The notes beneath the pieces are model-generated. The model was not told the origin of the DNA and did not search any database. It saw nothing but the letters and a program-made list of their open reading frames with translations. DNA of 16,311 nucleotides. It comes from Parcubacteria group bacterium GW2011_GWA2_50_10b (GTDB lineage Bacteria; Patescibacteriota; Minisyncoccia; Phycocordibacterales; Zambryskibacteraceae). The stretch is taken from positions 1-16,311 of the forward strand of contig LCQJ01000008.1 of the NCBI GenBank assembly GCA_001004085.1, in the 5' to 3' direction. A program made the position numbers and the translations under genes. Shown in pieces: positions 2,820 through 16,064 of this stretch; position 1 is the stretch's first letter, and each line of letters begins with the position of its first letter.

Positions 2820-3236
2820 GTGAAGGGTGACGTCTCTTCTCCCATCTTGCGCGCGGCCATAGATAAGGCGCGCGAATACAACATGCCGGCGGACAATATC
2901 GAGCGTGCAGTCAAAAAAGGTTCCAGCACAGATGCTCAAACGATGGAAGCGATTACCTACGAAGCCTATGGTCCGGGCGGTTCGGCGCTCATTATCGAAG
3001 CTCTGACCGAAAGCAGGAATAGAGCGGCGCAAGAAGTGAAATTTATTCTTTCCAAACACGGTTTCGAGCTGGCCACCCCCGGTTCGGCCGCTTGGGCCTT
3101 TAAAAAAGAAAATCATGAATGGAAGCCGACCATGACCATTCCCCTCTCGGAAGCAGACGGCCAAATTTTATCAGCGCTCATTGAAGAGCTCGAAGACAAC
3201 GATGAAGTCCAGGATGTCTACACTAATGCCGAATAG
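2820..3236 (+). CDS. yebC: YebC/PmpR/TACO1-family protein, N-terminally truncated and shortened
   Basis: The family acts in ribosome rescue/translation or as a DNA-binding regulator, and is classically next to ruvC. Conserved blocks are GDVSSPILRAAIDKAREYNMPADNIERAVKKG, YEAYGPGGSALIIEALTESRNRAAQEVKFILSKHG, and the ending LEDNDEVQDVYTNAE. The normal start (MSGHNKWSKIK... type) is missing. Family-like residues appear from about 2793 (RLISTASKQ) without an ATG, and a stop lies at 2757-2759, leaving GTG 2820 as the only plausible start. After GSAAWAFKKE the protein passes almost directly to TMTIPLSEADG, so about 60 residues corresponding to the middle domain of E. coli YebC seem absent in frame. 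The shortened middle may be lineage-specific; the lost N-terminus looks like damage. It overlaps ruvC by 11 bp. Confidence 0.85.
   Translation: MKGDVSSPILRAAIDKAREYNMPADNIERAVKKGSSTDAQTMEAITYEAYGPGGSALIIEALTESRNRAAQEVKFILSKHGFELATPGSAAWAFKKENHEWKPTMTIPLSEADGQILSALIEELEDNDEVQDVYTNAE
3175..3222 (+). repeat. 48-bp direct repeat, copy 1 (inside yebC 3' end)
   Basis: Identical over 48 bases to 4470-4517. This copy encodes LIEELEDNDEVQDVY near the end of yebC. Together the copies bracket ruvC, the NYN gene and the intervening cassette; the distance from copy start to copy start is 1295 bp. Confidence 0.9.
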
Positions 3237-3705
3237 GGTGCTCGCTATCGACCCGGGCTTTGACCGTATCGGGGTCGCGGTTTTAGATAAAGATACGGTC
3301 CTTTTCTCCACCTGCATTGAAACCAACCGTAAACAGCCACACGAAGAGCGTTTGCTAACCATAGGCGAAACGGTGAGAAAAATAATAAAAAAGTGGCAAC
3401 CGCAAAGCTTAGCTATTGAAACTTTATTCTTTAATCAGAATACCACTAGCGCCATTAAGGTGGCCGAAGCGCGTGGCGTCGTCCTCTTTGAGGCGGCCAC
3501 GGCTGGGCTTAAGGTCTTTGAGTATGGACCACAGGCGGTAAAGATCGCCGTGACCGGCTACGGCAAGGCCGACAAAGCCGCAATTAATGGTATGGTAAGA
3601 AAGCTGGTAACCATCCCTAAAAGCACCGCCAAAAAGCTAGATGACGAACTTGACGCCATCGCGGTGGGGATAACACATTTAGCATCAACTAGCAAACATA
3701 AATAG
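3226..3705 (+). CDS. ruvC: Crossover junction endodeoxyribonuclease RuvC
   Basis: Resolvase that cleaves Holliday junctions symmetrically. The start is ATG 3226, giving MPNRVLAIDPGFDRIG and overlapping yebC by 11 bp; an upstream in-frame extension to 3181 would lie wholly in yebC and is nonconserved. All four expected acidic residues are visible: D9 in AIDPG, E65 in LAIETLFF, and D140 and D143 in LDDELDAIAVG. The 159-aa length is normal. The NQNTTSAIKVAEARGVV helix and the YGPQAVKIAVTGYGKADK region are canonical. Its codons are more AT-rich than those of the RuvC ghost downstream (4519-4638), so this copy may be the imported allele. Confidence 0.95.
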   Translation: MPNRVLAIDPGFDRIGVAVLDKDTVLFSTCIETNRKQPHEERLLTIGETVRKIIKKWQPQSLAIETLFFNQNTTSAIKVAEARGVVLFEAATAGLKVFEYGPQAVKIAVTGYGKADKAAINGMVRKLVTIPKSTAKKLDDELDAIAVGITHLASTSKHK

Positions 3706-3732
3706 ATAATTTATGTTAACATTGCTTTTCAA

Positions 3733-4302
3733 ATGACTAGCAAAAAAGTAAAAGAAGTGCGTACTGGTGTTTTTATAGACGGTTCAAACCTTCTATGGGC
3801 CATGATAAGAAAAGATGATAAGGGAGATAAGATTAATTACGATATTTGTTTTGAAAAGCTAAAAGAATTTCTAAAAAAGAACTACTCTCCTGTTTTTTAT
3901 AATTATTACGTTTGTGAGGATAATGTGGCGACCTCTGAGCCTTATCTTAGCAGGTCAATAAAACAGAAAAACTTTCTAAAGAGACTAGAGGGATACGGTT
4001 ACAGTGTAAAAAGGAAAGACTTAAAAGTATTGAAATCTGGGGGAGCAAAATGTGACACGGATGTAGAGATTGTATTAGATTTGCATAAATATAAAGACGA
4101 TATTGATAATATAATTTTGTTTTCAGGAGACTCAGATTTCAGAGGAGCAGTAGAAACATTCTTTAATATGGGTAAACATATTAGAATTTATTCTTTTAAA
4201 AGTTCACTATCTTGGGAATTGAAGGAATTTGCTATAAAAAATCCACGCTGTAACTATAAACTCCTAGATGAGCTAAAAGATAAGCTGGAAAGGATACGGT
4301 AA
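3733..4302 (+). CDS. NYN-domain (LabA/DUF88-like, PIN-type) putative ribonuclease
   Basis: A 189-aa protein with the NYN/PIN-like metal-dependent RNase fold. The acidic motifs are FIDGSNLLW (D16, N19), CDTDVEIVLDL (D108, D110, D116) and FSGDSDFRGAV (D133, D135). No additional domain such as OST-HTH is evident; the C-terminus is a short basic helix. The gene is clearly more AT-rich than pilB, ruvB and PBP1, suggesting transfer, and it lies inside the segment bracketed by the 48-bp direct repeats. No Shine-Dalgarno site is visible before ATG 3733, 27 bp after the ruvC stop. The specific RNA target cannot be told from sequence. A defence, toxin-like or RNA-turnover role are all possible. Confidence 0.85.
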   Translation: MTSKKVKEVRTGVFIDGSNLLWAMIRKDDKGDKINYDICFEKLKEFLKKNYSPVFYNYYVCEDNVATSEPYLSRSIKQKNFLKRLEGYGYSVKRKDLKVLKSGGAKCDTDVEIVLDLHKYKDDIDNIILFSGDSDFRGAVETFFNMGKHIRIYSFKSSLSWELKEFAIKNPRCNYKLLDELKDKLERIR

Positions 4303-4321
4303 GTATTTATCCACATATACG

Positions 4322-4353
4322 TTGACAGTATATGCCCACTTCACATATACTGT
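4322..4353 (+). promoter_or_regulatory. Sigma70-type promoter overlapping a 10-bp inverted repeat
   Basis: TTGACA (4322-4327), an 18-bp spacer, then TATACT (4346-4351). ACAGTATATG (4325-4334) and CATATACTGT (4344-4353) form a perfect inverted repeat spanning both hexamers, so a dimeric repressor could sit exactly on the promoter. CCCAC (4335-4339) can alternatively pair with GTGGG (4352-4356). A perfect DnaA-box-like TTATCCACA lies just upstream at 4307-4315. Expected transcription start is near 4358. Confidence 0.6.
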
Positions 4354-4368
4354 GGGTGTTAGATATTA

Positions 4369-4400
4369 CCGACCCCCAGCAATGGGGGTCGGGTCTTTTT
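4369..4400 (+). terminator. Rho-independent terminator
   Basis: CCGACCCCC (4369-4377), loop AGCAAT, GGGGGTCGG (4384-4392), then GGTCTTTTTATTATT. A perfect 9-bp GC-rich stem followed by a T-run. It would end the ruvC-NYN transcript, and would also stop transcription from the promoter at 4322-4351 after only about 40-45 nt. Confidence 0.88.
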
Positions 4401-4428
4401 ATTATTGGAACTATAAATTACGAATTAC

Positions 4429-4457
4429 TTGACAGTATTATTTTTTAATGATAAAAA
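4429..4457 (+). promoter_or_regulatory. Possible second TTGACA promoter
   Basis: TTGACA at 4429-4434, and 17 bp later the weak -10 TAAAAA (4452-4457). The ten bases TTGACAGTAT are identical to those at 4322-4331. It points toward the 48-bp repeat and the acidic ORF at 4684. The weak -10 keeps confidence low. Confidence 0.3.
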
Positions 4458-4469
4458 AGCGCCAGATAA

Positions 4470-4517
4470 CGCTCATTGAAGAGCTCGAAGACAACGATGA
4501 AGTCCAGGATGTCTACA
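4470..4517 (+). repeat. 48-bp direct repeat, copy 2 (yebC fragment)
   Basis: Exact copy of yebC bases 3175-3222, here without the rest of yebC on either side. It is joined at 4518 directly to a RuvC C-terminal remnant, so it marks the far edge of a duplicated or inserted segment. Confidence 0.9.
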
Positions 4518-4518
4518 G

Positions 4519-4638
4519 ATGGAGAGTATGGTCCGGAAACTGGTCTCGGTGCCCGCGAGCGCCGGCAAAAGGCTCGATGACGAACTCGACGCCATCGCGG
4601 TGGGGATAACACACCTTGCGACCCAAAAGGGTATCTGA
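4519..4638 (+). pseudogene. ruvC: RuvC C-terminal remnant (second ruvC copy)
   Basis: A 39-codon frame encoding MVRKLVSVPASAGKRLDDE and LDAIAVGITHLATQKGI, then TGA. Hand alignment with the end of the intact RuvC gives 25 identical residues of 31 (from MVRKLV to HLA), including both C-terminal catalytic aspartates. The 26 bases 4588-4613 are identical to 3652-3677. It is more GC-rich than the intact gene and so resembles the bulk of the window. The first three quarters of this ruvC are missing: the sequence goes straight from the yebC fragment to this tail. It is non-functional as a nuclease because D9 and E65 are lost. Confidence 0.85.
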
Positions 4639-6048: not shown

Positions 6049-6066
6049 AAATGAGTGTTCGAATGA

Positions 6067-6132
6067 ATCCCGTACGAAATTTATGTTATATGTTTATCAC
6101 ATTTTATAAATTATGTTTATTTCGTACGGGAT
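6067..6132 (+). repeat. 66-bp palindrome-ended element, copy A (PBP1 start)
   Basis: ATCCCGTACGAAAT (6067-6080) is the exact inverse of 6119-6132, and the last two bases are the AT of the PBP1 start codon. Compared on the coding strand with copy B (8626 to 8561), it aligns without gaps over 66 bases with 9 differences. Both arms, GTTATATGTT (6085-6094) and TTATAAATTA (6104-6113, except for its last base region) are conserved, while the middle varies. Centres of the two CGTACG cores are 52 bp apart, close to five helical turns. It could be a paired operator/promoter or a mobile initiation cassette; TATAAA (6105-6110) is a candidate -10. Confidence 0.8.
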
Positions 6133-8296
6133 GAAAAAATTCCTGAAAAGGATGCGGCATTCCAACCTTTCTCTGGCGGCCGCGGCCGTCACACTCTTTG
6201 CCCTCGGTCTCTCCATCCTCTGGCTGGCATCGCTGCGCATCCCGGCCCTCGAGAGCATCTCGGAGCGCCAAATCGACCAGTCGACCAAGATTTACGACCG
6301 CACCGGCCAAATCCTCCTCTATGACCTCTCCAAAGACGTCAGGAGAAACCAGGTGACCTTTGAAGACATCTCTCCTTACATCAAAGCGGCCACCATCGCC
6401 ATCGAGGACCGTTCTTTCTACTCCCACCGCGGCTTTATCTTGAGCTCCTTCCTGCGCGCTGTCTGGGTTAACCTCACCACCCTCTCCTTCAGCCAAGGAG
6501 GTTCGACCATCACCCAGCAAGTGGTCAAAAACTCGATTCTGACCAAGGACAAGACGCCGACCAGGAAACTCAAGGAATTGATTCTCGCCCTCAAACTCGA
6601 GAAAGTCCTCTCAAAAGAAGAAATTCTTTCTCTTTACCTCAACGAAATCCCTTATGGCGGCACCATTTACGGCATCGAGGAGGCGGCCCAAAACTTCTTC
6701 GGCAAAAGCGCTCGGGATGTCACTCTCTCTGAAGCGGCTTATCTTTCCTCCCTGCCCAAAGCTCCAAGCTTCTACTCTCCTTATGGCTCCCACCAAACGG
6801 AACTTGAGGCTCGGAAAAACCTGGTGCTCTCCGAAATGCTCAAGAACGAATTCATTACGCAGGAAGAATACGACGCCGCCATGAAGGAAGGGTCGGTCTT
6901 CAAAGAGAAGCAGGATACGGGCAACATCAAAGCGCCGCACTTTGTCTTTTTCGTCATCGATTACCTGGCGAAGAAATACGGTGAGGACGCCGTCCAGAAC
7001 AGCGGCTTTAAAATCGTGACCACCCTCGATTACTCGATCCAGCGCGACGCCGAAGCCATTGCCAAGAAATACGGCCCCATCAACAAGGAGAAGTTCAACG
7101 GTGAGAACAACGCCATGGTAGTCATCGACCCGAAGACCGGCGATATCCTGGCCATGGTCGGCTCCAAAGATTATTTCGATAAGGAAATCGACGGCAACTT
7201 CAACGCCGCCATAAGCCACCGCCAGCCGGGTTCGACCTTCAAGCCATTCGTCTACTCGGTCCTCTTCAATAAAGGCTACACCGACCAGACGGTGCTCTTT
7301 GACGCGCCCATCCAGTTCTCGACCTCCTGCGCGGGGGACTTTCTGGTCACCGACGACAAATGTTACGCGCCCGGCAACTACGATGACCTCTTCAGGGGCC
7401 CCATGACCATTAGAAACGCGCTCGCCCAGTCCATCAACGTTCCAGCCGTCGAGGCGCTTTACCTCGCCGGGGTCAAGAATTCCATCAAACTGGCCGAGAG
7501 TATGGGTATCGAGAGCCTGACCGATACTTCAAACTACGGCTTGTCGCTGGTCCTCGGAGGCGGGTCGGTGTCTCTGCTTGATATGACGGCGGCTTATTCC
7601 GTATTTGGAAACGACGGCACAAGAAATCCCTATACGCCGGTGCTCTGGGTCGAAGACGCGCAGGGCAACATCATCGACAAGCATATTCCGTTCCCGCGCC
7701 AGGTGCTCCCGGAGCAGACCGCGCGCATTATCTCGAGCATTCTCTCCGACAACACTGCGCGCACACCAGGCTACGGCCCCAACTCCCCGCTCTATGTCGC
7801 CGAACGCGATGTGGCGGTCAAGACCGGTACCTCAAACGACTACCGAGACGCCTGGATTATCGGCTACGCTCCCAATATCGCCATCGGCGCCTGGGTCGGC
7901 AACAACGATAACTCGGAGATGGAGAAGAAGGTGGCCGGACTCATTGTTTCGCCCATGTGGCGAGATTTGATGGATAAAGTCCTGCCTACCCTGCCGGCCG
8001 AATCGTTTACCCCGCCGACACCCGAAGACTCTTCCAGGCTCAAGCCGATACTGCGCGGTGAATTGGGCAGCGAGCCGCACTCTATCCTCTACTGGGTGGA
8101 CAAAGACAATCCTCGCGGTCCCATACCGAGCTATCCGGGCAACGACCCGCAATTCAATAATTGGGAATACGGTGTTAAGCGCTGGGCGGCTACTCACGGC
8201 TTTGGCGCCTACGCCACTCCGGTTACCACCGAGCCGGCCCAGACTCTGCCGCCAACCCCGGCTGACGCGGGCTTCATCCCTTTGCCGGCCAACTAA
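6131..8296 (+). CDS. Class A penicillin-binding protein (PBP1A/1C-type, bifunctional transglycosylase/transpeptidase)
   Basis: A 721-aa peptidoglycan synthase. It has a cytoplasmic basic start, a transmembrane helix at about 12-34, and a GT51 glycosyltransferase with EDRSFYSHRG (92-101), GGSTITQQVVKN (123-134), RKLKELILALKLE and EEAAQNFFGKS. The transpeptidase has SxxK as STFK (S368, K371), SxN as SIN (434-436) and KTGT (564-567). The Pro/Thr-rich C-terminus is about 660-721. The start is ATG 6131: an in-frame ATG at 6113 lies in the 66-bp element, and copy B has AAG at the equivalent position but keeps the later ATG. The stop is 5 bp from the convergent DciA-like stop. C400 and C411 could form a disulfide. 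Confidence 0.95.
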   Translation: MKKFLKRMRHSNLSLAAAAVTLFALGLSILWLASLRIPALESISERQIDQSTKIYDRTGQILLYDLSKDVRRNQVTFEDISPYIKAATIAIEDRSFYSHRGFILSSFLRAVWVNLTTLSFSQGGSTITQQVVKNSILTKDKTPTRKLKELILALKLEKVLSKEEILSLYLNEIPYGGTIYGIEEAAQNFFGKSARDVTLSEAAYLSSLPKAPSFYSPYGSHQTELEARKNLVLSEMLKNEFITQEEYDAAMKEGSVFKEKQDTGNIKAPHFVFFVIDYLAKKYGEDAVQNSGFKIVTTLDYSIQRDAEAIAKKYGPINKEKFNGENNAMVVIDPKTGDILAMVGSKDYFDKEIDGNFNAAISHRQPGSTFKPFVYSVLFNKGYTDQTVLFDAPIQFSTSCAGDFLVTDDKCYAPGNYDDLFRGPMTIRNALAQSINVPAVEALYLAGVKNSIKLAESMGIESLTDTSNYGLSLVLGGGSVSLLDMTAAYSVFGNDGTRNPYTPVLWVEDAQGNIIDKHIPFPRQVLPEQTARIISSILSDNTARTPGYGPNSPLYVAERDVAVKTGTSNDYRDAWIIGYAPNIAIGAWVGNNDNSEMEKKVAGLIVSPMWRDLMDKVLPTLPAESFTPPTPEDSSRLKPILRGELGSEPHSILYWVDKDNPRGPIPSYPGNDPQFNNWEYGVKRWAATHGFGAYATPVTTEPAQTLPPTPADAGFIPLPAN

Positions 8297-8301
8297 CCTG
8301 T

Positions 8302-8562
8302 TTATTTATAAACAATCCGGGAAACCGAAAGGCGGTAAACTTCTTTCAGTTCGTCTTTAATGGCCGCTTCCTTCAGGGCAATTTCATTTTTAACGGCCGG
8401 GGAAGCGGAAATTTCAAGCACCCCGTCTTTCCATAATATTTTATCGGCCGGAATTCCGGCACCGGTTCTTTTTTGAATGACCGCGGCAATCGTCTCTTTG
8501 GTCTCGGTATCTTTGTTTAAAGCTTTGGAAAACCTTTCCAGGAGGGAGAGAAGGTTTTTCAT
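8302..8562 (-). CDS. DciA-like (DUF721) protein
   Basis: An 86-aa protein. The N-terminal helix is short, and the core I-QKRTG--IPADKILWKDGVLEISASPAVKNEIALKE---KDELKEVY-LSVSRIVYK follows the DUF721/DciA pattern: a strand, then a basic stretch, an alpha helix and a final V--I-V-type strand. DciA loads or activates the replicative helicase in most bacteria lacking DnaC. Position downstream of dnaN on the same strand supports this, since DUF721 genes often follow dnaN/recF. The family match is by eye and the protein is short, so the assignment is moderate. Its ATG is formed by the end of the 66-bp element (copy B). Confidence 0.65.
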   Translation of the reverse strand: MKNLLSLLERFSKALNKDTETKETIAAVIQKRTGAGIPADKILWKDGVLEISASPAVKNEIALKEAAIKDELKEVYRLSVSRIVYK

Positions 8563-8626
8563 CCCGTACGAAATAAACTTAATTTATAACTCGGGTTGAA
8601 CATATAACGAAAATTTCGTACGGGAT
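8561..8626 (-). repeat. 66-bp palindrome-ended element, copy B (DciA-like start)
   Basis: Arms ATCCCGTACGAAAT at 8561-8574 and its inverse at 8613-8626. Read on the minus strand it ends in GGGATGAAAAAC, exactly where the DciA-like gene starts. It begins 10 bp after the dnaN stop. Orientation is opposite to copy A, so the two copies form an inverted pair around the PBP1/DciA-like gene pair (6067-8626). Core-to-core distance is again 52 bp. Confidence 0.8.
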
Positions 8627-8636
8627 TCATGGCGGA

Positions 8637-15257: not shown

Positions 15258-15317
15258 ATGAAGCATTTGCAATACAACCTTGTTTTTAGGCCAGAACCGG
15301 AAGGCGGCTTTACCGTC
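15258..15317 (+). pseudogene. HicB antitoxin N-terminal fragment
   Basis: ATG 15258 encodes MKHLQYNLVFRPEPEGGFTV, the standard HicB opening (---Y-----PE-EGG-TV). The expected V-P-LPGC--G then fails: homology stops at 15317, exactly where the 27-bp direct repeat of the transposase unit begins. The frame runs on nonhomologously to a TAG near 15390. An in-frame ATG at 15228 would add ten residues. The remainder of hicB is not found beyond the right repeat. Confidence 0.6.
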
Positions 15318-15343
15318 CATTCTCACATAGGTCTTGCCTCTGT
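15317..15343 (+). repeat. 27-bp direct repeat, left copy of transposase unit
   Basis: Identical over 27 bases to 15999-16025, starting CCATTCTCACATAGG. On the minus strand it supplies the last codons and the TGA stop of the transposase gene. Confidence 0.88.
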
Positions 15344-15985
15344 GTTTACAAGCCAATCAAGAATTTCCTTCTCGAACACCTTTTCATTCGGAAGATAGTC
15401 AGGAAATGCAGTACGGTTGATAATTATCCTTTCTGGTCTTAGCTGATTTAAGTAATCTGAGTAGCTAGAAAAATAGTACTTCCTTAAATATTCCACACAT
15501 TTATTTAAATCTTTAATTCCGTTTTCTTTCCAATCTTTTTGTATAAGTTTTATGGGATTAAGATGTATATAGGAGAATAAATATTTAAGATAAGTATCAT
15601 TTGAAGCATGCTCAGCTTTAAATTTACCCTCAAAAAGAGATCCTGTTCTAGAATATTTAGCATTGTAATACATCGATAATCCGGTGCTGAATTTTTGCAT
15701 GAACTTACTAAGACCCCCTTCTTCAATCGGTGTAATAAGTAAATGAAAGTGATTTGGCATTGCGCAGTAAGCTCCAATGTTAATTATTGGATTACCTCTA
15801 TCTATAGAATAAATGTCACCCTCGATATCCCTTATTACAAAGTTTTTGTGTGAATTGGAAAGATAAAGTAATTTAAGAAAATGATAATAGTCGCTAGCGT
15901 CATGAAATATTTGGCGCTTATCGTTTTCCCTGTTATAGATATGAAAATATTCGCCGGGAACAAAAGAAGTCTTTCGGATTGCCAT
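15323..15985 (-). CDS. IS200-like / REP-associated tyrosine (Y1) transposase
   Basis: A 220-aa single-strand HUH transposase. The start is ATG 15985 (MAIRKTSFVPGEYFHIYNREN, the family's typical opening); a longer frame to 16063 only reads through the right repeat. YCAMPNHFHLLITP carries the HUH motif (H79, H81). The helix SMYYNAKYSRTGSLFEGKFKAE (104-125) holds candidate nucleophile tyrosines (Y106, Y107, Y111) and the R-G-LFEG-FKAE block of RAYT proteins. YLFSYIHLNPIK follows. It appears intact. It is AT-rich relative to the core genes. It lies within a unit whose ends are 27-bp direct repeats, next to a broken hicB. Confidence 0.9.
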   Translation of the reverse strand: MAIRKTSFVPGEYFHIYNRENDKRQIFHDASDYYHFLKLLYLSNSHKNFVIRDIEGDIYSIDRGNPIINIGAYCAMPNHFHLLITPIEEGGLSKFMQKFSTGLSMYYNAKYSRTGSLFEGKFKAEHASNDTYLKYLFSYIHLNPIKLIQKDWKENGIKDLNKCVEYLRKYYFSSYSDYLNQLRPERIIINRTAFPDYLPNEKVFEKEILDWLVNTEARPM

Positions 15986-15998
15986 ACTATCAAGTTTA

Positions 15999-16025
15999 CC
16001 ATTCTCACATAGGTCTTGCCTCTGT
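15999..16025 (+). repeat. 27-bp direct repeat, right copy of transposase unit
   Basis: Exact copy of 15317-15343, spaced 682 bp from it. It lies in the 5' leader of the transposase gene, 14 bp before its ATG. Confidence 0.88.
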
Positions 16026-16030
16026 ACAGT

Positions 16031-16049
16031 GTTAATAATAAGTATTAAC
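16031..16049. other. Subterminal hairpin beside the right repeat
   Basis: GTTAATA-ATAAG-TATTAAC, a perfect 7-bp AT stem with a 5-nt loop, 5 bp outside the right repeat. IS200-like transposases recognise hairpins near element ends, so it may mark the right end. No equivalent is evident at the left. Confidence 0.4.
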
Positions 16050-16064
16050 CCCTCTTTATTCATA

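Follow-up and report, generated by a model that had tools for sequence, protein, structure and literature searches.

What places the same short sequence directly at the start codons of two different genes? The question is raised by a 16,311-nucleotide stretch of DNA from Parcubacteria group bacterium GW2011_GWA2_50_10b (contig LCQJ01000008.1, C8 in our numbering; hereafter the window), in which a 66-bp repeat with palindromic ends stands once at the start of the gene for the penicillin-binding protein PBP1 and once at the start of a small gene that follows dnaN. An initial annotation of the letters had offered two answers, a co-regulating operator/promoter cassette and a mobile initiation element. 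The second lies close to the evidence described below, which includes target duplications and empty sites in relatives, whereas the first is not supported. The 66-bp repeat is probably a non-autonomous copy, resembling a miniature inverted-repeat transposable element (MITE), of a tiny insertion element that carries a GIY-YIG nuclease gene.

The two copies (6067-6132 on the plus strand and 8561-8626 on the minus strand) are real and differ at 9 of 66 positions, as first described; all nine differences fall within the inner 38 positions and none within the 28 arm positions. Reading of the letters bears out perfect 14-bp inverted-repeat arms in both, and the final AT of each copy forms the beginning of the ATG of the gene behind it. 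The sequence CGTACG occurs at four sites in the window, all of them in these arms; the core alone is not rare, because 29 of 200 shuffles also give at least four. Outside each copy lies a direct repeat, ATGAA, of which the initial annotation made no use. Copy 1 has it at 6063-6067 and 6131-6135, and copy 2, read on the minus strand, has it at 8630-8626 and 8562-8558, which gives each the layout ATGAA / TCCCGTACGAAAT..ATTTCGTACGGG / ATGAA. The inverted repeat ends with the A that precedes the right TGAA, so that the duplication is TGAA and the inserted unit is 64 bp long.

The window pair belongs to a family of 13 copies in its 384-kb, 31-contig genome (arms with up to two mismatches). Ten of these pairs have CGTACG-type arms, one of them being 277 bp long, and three are of a sister arm type (for example CCCGTTAG/CTAATGGG); a single arm-like site without a partner lies on contig C25. 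An identical 4-mer flanks both sides of all 13 pairs (TGAA, or TGAG at C21 and C16), and the fifth flank base agrees in 12, the exception being C10 (CTGAA left, ATGAA right). When eight downstream proteins were scanned, seven gave Pfam matches (PBP1, PrsW, Hsp20, ribosomal S4, RuvX, PGK and a pilin methylation motif, the last below the curated cut-off). The eighth, encoded after dnaN, has no match at E 0.001, and its earlier label "DciA-like" could not be confirmed. The open reading frame (ORF) behind C10 runs for 25 codons only and that behind C21 for 5. The same element is carried by another genome of the genus (G008). In C4, the inner sequence apparently lies in the opposite orientation, as judged by eye.

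Relatives supply the empty sites. For the dnaN junction, 14 relatives of the same genus were listed (the own genome and L271 stand outside this count). In eight of them (L259-L262 and L266-L269), dnaN leads to the small gene without an insert, the dnaN stop either overlapping the gene or lying 3 to 21 bases from it. The remaining six have another arrangement, in which the small gene could not be recognised immediately behind dnaN in the stretch looked at. The insert-free junctions read TTAG-ATGAAGAATCT (L260), TTG-ATGAAAAATCT (L266) and TTGGG-ATGAAAAATCT (L268), and the occupied junction of the window reads TCCGCC-ATGAA-element-ATGAAAAACCT. PBP1 likewise starts without the element in the three relatives named in Table 1 and in others. 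An AT-rich block (ACATATGTTAAAAT), promoter-like by eye, is found just upstream of the PBP1 start in L305, L307, L311 and L312; it is separate from the element and persists whether or not the insert is present. The initial annotation had counted absence from relatives with unchanged flanks against its own proposals; the insert is indeed absent there while the gene order is unchanged, a finding that speaks for insertion and against regulation. In L306 and L318, the PBP1 start carries another short insert (ATGACCCGTTCGACTACGCTCAGGGTCATGG..) that has an inverted repeat of its own, and L315 (G007) has a same-family element with GTTAGAAGT arms at the neighbouring tyrS start, the start codon being judged by eye.

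These results bear on the operator/promoter cassette, in which a dimeric regulator would bind two CGTACG arms five helical turns apart and co-regulate a wall synthase and a replication gene. Strict conservation of the arms beside a varying middle would suit such a regulator: among five gap-free own copies, differences amount to 0 of 280 compared arm positions and 113 of 380 inner positions, and the spacing is constant in all five. However, the downstream genes are unrelated (rpsD, pgk, ruvX, hsp20, prsW and PBP1), the arm spacing across the family ranges from 48 to 283 bp core to core, the promoter-like block is not part of the element, and at one site, C19, a nuclease gene lies between the arms. 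The short duplications, which already contradict an operator, occur together with empty sites. The cassette was rejected on the duplications, the empty sites and the unrelated genes, and we regard it as very improbable.

The site on contig C19 provides a full-length counterpart in the same genome. Upstream of ruvX, CGTACG arms and ATGAA repeats surround 249 bp with one ORF, the 86-aa product of which is predicted by domain match to belong to the GIY-YIG nuclease superfamily (PF01541, E 1.1e-16, 61.3 bits vs a cut-off of 22.6). The nearest solved chains are the UPF0213 proteins BH0048 (1zg2, E 7e-8) and EF2693 (1ywl, E 0.003). Residues Y5, Y16, H30, R61 and E62 are identical in all 120 aligned homologs and R26 in 119; the conserved Tyr/Tyr/Arg/Glu residues are what we take to be the known GIY-YIG catalytic residues. 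The arm itself contributes to the coding sequence: the last codons of the C19 protein (FRTG and TGA) consist of the right arm plus the ATGA of the host. An FRTG C-terminus is present in 97 of 121 proteins (the query and the 120 listed of 2371 homologs). Once ORFs above 200 aa and repeated sequences are dropped, the genus, 24 element-bearing genomes and the phylum together yield 86 distinct GIY-YIG loci. In 24 of these, the ORF ends carry a perfect 11-bp terminal inverted repeat, vs 0 of 85 shifted control windows. Such a repeat accompanies 20 of the 23 proteins that end in TG, and 17 of those 20 repeats contain CCGTTAGA; C19 carries the CGTACG version. The captured start codon can serve as the beginning of the nuclease ORF in L249 (MNPVRPFYYTYIL..); this ORF ends in ..LTG, and its stop falls on the next ATGA. 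No transposase of a known class lies between the ends of C19 or of the other full copies read, only the GIY-YIG protein. Among the arm matches listed, the longest pair (379 bp, in G219) holds a GIY-YIG gene, and no larger ORF-bearing pair was seen by eye among these exact arms, pairs with mismatched arms being missed by such a search.

Short and full-length copies are linked by their ends. The own genome has three GIY-YIG genes, of which C19 alone showed a terminal repeat, and its short copies carry the same rare CGTACG arm; the CCCGTTAGAG arm is absent from this genome among the matches listed. In G457, dozens of GTTAGAG arms are accompanied by two 276-bp nuclease copies with the same arms. 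In G443, short copies with GTTAGAAAT arms are found together with a nuclease element whose right arm is exact and whose left arm is one mismatch off, and the GTTAGAG arm is absent among the matches listed. Similarity extends inward in places. Translation of the C10 inner sequence gives MLYTYYIKN.., which resembles the nuclease N-terminus (equalled by 0 of 400 shuffles). In four G443 short copies, the 20 nt inside the right arm agree with the nuclease element at 17, 13, 14 and 14 positions, scores that 0, 7, 2 and 2 of 2000 shuffles match; the left ends of these copies agree at only 7 to 12 of 20. The short copies are most plausibly non-autonomous derivatives of the GIY-YIG element.

Related elements are present in other Patescibacteria, in Omnitrophota, in Planctomycetes and in a few other groups. 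A degenerate pattern found 59 elements in 57 stretches, from Nomurabacteria, Kaiserbacteria, Komeilibacteria, Saccharibacteria, Omnitrophota, Phycisphaerae, WOR-3 and others. Any single arm version is sporadic, since exact GTTAGAAAT arms at short spacing occur in only 5 of 379 genomes of the phylum. The 24 genomes with arms have several occurrences each, and the reversed control pattern gives 0-1 per strand and genome among the matches listed; 27 of the 34 single exact arms examined have a nearby partner with one mismatch. Homologs of the GIY-YIG protein at E 1e-15 are present in at least 118 of the 379 genomes searched; sources that give such proteins a name use "GIY-YIG nuclease family protein", "excinuclease ABC subunit C" or "putative endonuclease". 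Two scans of viral contigs gave no ORF-length version with GTTAGAAAT arms. Other small GIY-YIG genes adjoin what appear by eye to be tRNA genes (L049, L052, L053, L057, L069 and L254); in some of these inserts part of the tRNA sequence is repeated on the far side, a parallel target-restoring habit. In L054 and L061, GIY-YIG genes lie between ATGGATCCGGTACT.. and ..CAGTAACCGGATGGAT, another arm version that repeats start-codon-like sequence.

The target of insertion was judged from elements found by their arms alone, namely a set of 50 pairs and a set of 43 elements in G457, G134, G219, G186 and G453; most of the genomes behind them were chosen for a degenerate-pattern match or a nuclease element. 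An exact 4-mer duplication is present in 38 of the 50 pairs (maximum over 2000 permutations, 19), and in most pairs the variable letters match across the two sides (ATGAG/ATGAG, ATGGA/ATGGA, ATGTA/ATGTA). Start codons, defined by an ORF of at least 60 aa or of at least 30 aa if it runs off the locus, are the site of 39 of the 50, vs 353 of 20000 random positions and 164 of 589 ATGAA words. Genome G457, with dozens of CCCGTTAGAG-armed elements (at least 43 forward and at least 51 reverse arm matches), has exact TNNA-type duplications in 28 of the 31 analysed, including TGAA, TTTA, TAAA, TCAA, TTAA and others. A set of 120 elements with exact duplication, uninformative on duplication frequency because it was selected for that property, has T at position 1 in 113 and A at position 4 in 115. 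The target rule is therefore TNNA and not start codons as such. Start codons are favoured because TGAA sits in ATGAA and the end base of the element (A or G) rebuilds the codon; a G in this position gives GTG starts in L230 and G457. The 59 pattern-found elements form part of this 120-element set and of a 141-element set (107 at start codons, 34 dropped), and are biased toward start codons because the search pattern contained GA..ATGA.

A mechanism may be proposed on this basis. A full copy measures about 250-300 bp and consists of ~13-bp terminal inverted repeats around one single-domain GIY-YIG nuclease ORF. The flanking letters show that the element enters TNNA and duplicates those 4 bp. 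If it enters an ATGAA start at TGAA, the first base of a new ATG (or GTG) comes from the terminal GGGA (or GGGG), and the gene is left intact behind the insert. The right arm also encodes the end of the nuclease (..RTG or ..LTG), at such sites with a TGA stop that overlaps the restored start (ATGA). The GIY-YIG protein, the presumed mobilising enzyme, could recognise the paired arms, perhaps as a hairpin or cruciform, and nick the element ends and the target strands 4 nt apart, after which gap filling would yield the duplication; short copies would be mobilised in trans. The insertion, the duplication, the empty sites, the shared ends and the restored start codons are documented at the level of sequence. 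The association of the elements with start codons would be explained by survival under selection of insertions at gene boundaries, together with the TGAA target and the start-restoring end. On balance, we favour the view that this is a new class of DNA transposon, in which one ~86-aa GIY-YIG nuclease would be the whole transposase. The nuclease would work on inverted ends that form hairpins and would cut TNNA with a 4-nt stagger; the ends would rebuild any start codon that is hit and couple the host gene to the stop of the element, with miniature copies dispersed among the genes of Patescibacteria and other uncultured bacteria.

Mobilisation in trans by a different enzyme, for instance the Y1/IS200-like transposase encoded at 15326-16063, with the GIY-YIG gene as a passenger or an invading homing gene, is an unlikely alternative. 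A Y1_Tnp gene does lie in the same window, and many GIY-YIG genes are without such arms, 62 of the 86 loci having no perfect repeat. Against this, Y1 systems are not known to make target duplications or to use long terminal inverted repeats, both of which are present here, and the C-terminus of the nuclease is encoded by the arm itself. In addition, the arm version of the short copies matches that of the resident nuclease element in each case (CGTACG in the own genome, GTTAGAG in G457, GTTAGAAAT in G443), and no larger pair was apparent by eye among the arm matches listed.

Several observations weigh against the proposal of a GIY-YIG insertion element with miniature copies. No movement was observed, the data being sequences alone, and GIY-YIG enzymes typically leave overhangs of 1-2 nt, not 4. 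Several full copies are without an exact duplication, and 4 of the 24 perfect repeats (L291, L298, L067 and L247) have other sequences and may be unrelated. Of seven own short copies tested, only C10 has significant inner similarity to the nuclease; that of C4 is weak (equalled by 39 of 400 shuffles), and none of significance is seen in the five gap-free 66-bp copies (equalled by 78-231 of 400). Given the divergence of their inner parts beside invariant arms, the own copies do not stem from one recent burst. Only 9 of the 31 elements in G457 stand at start codons and 22 lie elsewhere, and an early reading of strict start-codon targeting was dropped on this account. Outside G457 the pattern is less clean, with exact duplication in 4 of 7 elements of G134 (one at a start codon) and in 1 of 5 in G219, G186 and G453 together (one at a start codon). 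Finally, a subtype with the left flank ACTTG has no left duplication, and is possibly a domesticated or differently targeted form. This subtype, with ACTTG in place of ATGAA, was noted in L147, L148, L157, L219 and L223-L226, with ATTTCTAATGGGATG as right arm (a G.U pair as RNA) and an ORF of at least 78 codons behind it; L215 has the ACTTG flank without an ORF of that length.

A further alternative is domestication, in which the host would retain the insert as a cis-acting RNA hairpin or mini-ORF for translation control of the gene behind it. As RNA, each window copy folds better than 200 of 200 shuffles (z of -3.0 and -3.3), and the ACTTG-flanked subtype recurs. The arms also covary: among the 120 elements, the two arms of a copy are complementary at the variable inner position +2 in 120 cases, at +3 in 119 and at +4 in 117, vs 64.5, 105.8 and 107.5 for shuffled partners, and from +5 inward there is no excess beyond the range of the shuffles. 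Moreover, all five gap-free 66-bp own copies, both window copies included, keep an open mini-ORF that runs from the duplicated ATG to a TGA overlapping the restored start. However, covariation is also expected if one protein recognises both ends or if the ends pair as a DNA hairpin. It indicates either that one protein sees two equal ends or that the ends pair as DNA or RNA, and a hairpin-recognising nuclease would fit both. Of 107 start-codon elements, only 22 have a coupled mini-ORF; in 14 it is in frame with the host gene, in 54 it is stopped inside, 16 have no left start codon and 1 is of another kind. Translational coupling as a general rule was ruled out on this count, although it may help in some copies. 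Many copies also lie away from start codons, as in G457. Domestication is quite unlikely, and a hairpin in the 5'-untranslated region of the mRNA is possibly a by-product of insertion. Neither repeat (6067-6132 and 8561-8626) matched an Rfam family up to E 10. The 18 copies of G457 with 57 bp between arm cores are of constant length, with a pyrimidine-rich strand, identical arm cores and strongly diverged inner parts; their inner arm position pair is A-T in 12, G-C in 5 and A.C in 1. Hypermutation of the inner part was considered and is not convincing, with 1416 transitions vs 959 transversions among these copies pairwise and 53 vs 60 among the five own copies.

Compared with known systems, the element resembles MITEs and insertion sequences in its terminal inverted repeats, its 4-bp duplication, its scattered copies, its occurrence with and without an ORF between the same ends, and its empty sites. 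It differs from them in that the only ORF seen between its ends is a ~86-aa GIY-YIG nuclease, not a DDE, HUH/Y1, serine or tyrosine enzyme, and in that its end restores a start codon at TGAA targets. With small UPF0213-like GIY-YIG proteins (PF01541) it shares the domain and the nearest structures; unlike those genes, the gene described here lies within terminal inverted repeats with target duplications. Palindromic ends are shared with IS200/IS605, REP/RAYT and HEARO/IscB, the last of which inserts next to ATGA. These systems use a Y1 enzyme and are not known to make a target duplication, whereas here duplications are present and no Y1 gene was seen between the arms of the elements read; membership of IS200/IS605 or RAYT/REP was rejected on both points. 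As in GIY-YIG homing endonuclease genes (I-TevI type and the free-standing Seg genes), a nuclease gene behaves as a selfish insert; unlike homing, which depends on one long cognate site, insertion here is at a 4-bp TNNA in unrelated genes, with a duplication and inverted-repeat ends. One account (PMC1564403) describes homing enzymes, unlike transposases, as recognising the uninterrupted target site only and not their mobile DNA. A homing endonuclease element was ruled out, there being no long conserved cognate site and TNNA targets in unrelated genes. No report of GIY-YIG elements with terminal inverted repeats in bacteria was found among titles and the opening parts of abstracts; preprints and most subscription papers lay outside this coverage, and an earlier description is possible.

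Known bacterial transposition enzymes fall into a few catalytic classes. A GIY-YIG transposase, if correct, would add one, a new kind of engine for bacterial transposons within some 280 bp of DNA, and would give a reason for many of the tiny GIY-YIG genes of Patescibacteria. The copies described here illustrate how an insert can strike the start of rpsD, pgk or PBP1 with the protein unchanged. They also carry a warning for annotation: apparent N-termini of the form MNPVRN.. are element sequence. The features of the two window copies are collected in Table 1.

Table 1 Positions of the two inserts and of the genes behind them in the window
Feature	Position	Strand	Remarks
Left ATGAA, copy 1	6063..6067	+	original start-codon target; left TGAA duplicate at 6064-6067; relatives L307, L311 and L319 start without the insert
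64-bp element, copy 1, sense to PBP1	6068..6131	+	13-bp terminal inverted repeats TCCCGTACGAAAT / ATTTCGTACGGGA; 4-bp duplication
Left arm ATCCCGTACGAAAT	6067..6080	+	read from the letters
Right arm ATTTCGTACGGGAT	6119..6132	+	A6131 is the A of the restored ATG
Right TGAA duplicate, copy 1	6132..6135	+	gives ATGAA with A6131
Open mini-ORF across copy 1 (MNPVRNLCYMFITFYKLCLFRTG, then stop)	6063..6134	+	duplicated ATG to a TGA overlapping the PBP1 start
Class A penicillin-binding protein PBP1 (Transgly and Transpeptidase)	6131..8296	+	PF00912 E 6.8e-59; PF00905 E 3.6e-23
64-bp element, copy 2, sense to downstream gene	8562..8625	-	same arms and TGAA duplication as copy 1
Left ATGAA of copy 2, original target	8626..8630	-	read from the letters
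Right TGAA duplicate, copy 2	8558..8561	-	read from the letters
Open mini-ORF across copy 2 (MNPVRNFRYMFNPSYKLSLFRTG, then stop)	8559..8630	-	ends at a TGA overlapping the next start codon
Small ORF after dnaN, 86 aa	8302..8562	-	no Pfam match

Other features of the window were noted in passing. The Y1_Tnp (IS200-like) gene, on the minus strand, has perfect 27-bp direct repeats (15317-15343 and 15999-16025) near or at both ORF ends. A 48-bp segment at 3175-3222, apparently the end of yebC, has an exact second copy at 4470-4517. From the ORF that follows, which by eye is ruvC-like, 88 bp (3590-3677) reappear at 4526-4613 with an 80% match. The repeats at 3175-4613 bracket a 189-aa ORF (3733-4302), and the region looks like a duplicated or replaced segment. 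Within 1213-2658, a ruvB-like frame seems by eye to lose its usual C-terminus near 2125, and is followed by a small minus-strand ORF (2377-2658) with what we take to be a resemblance to HicB antitoxins.

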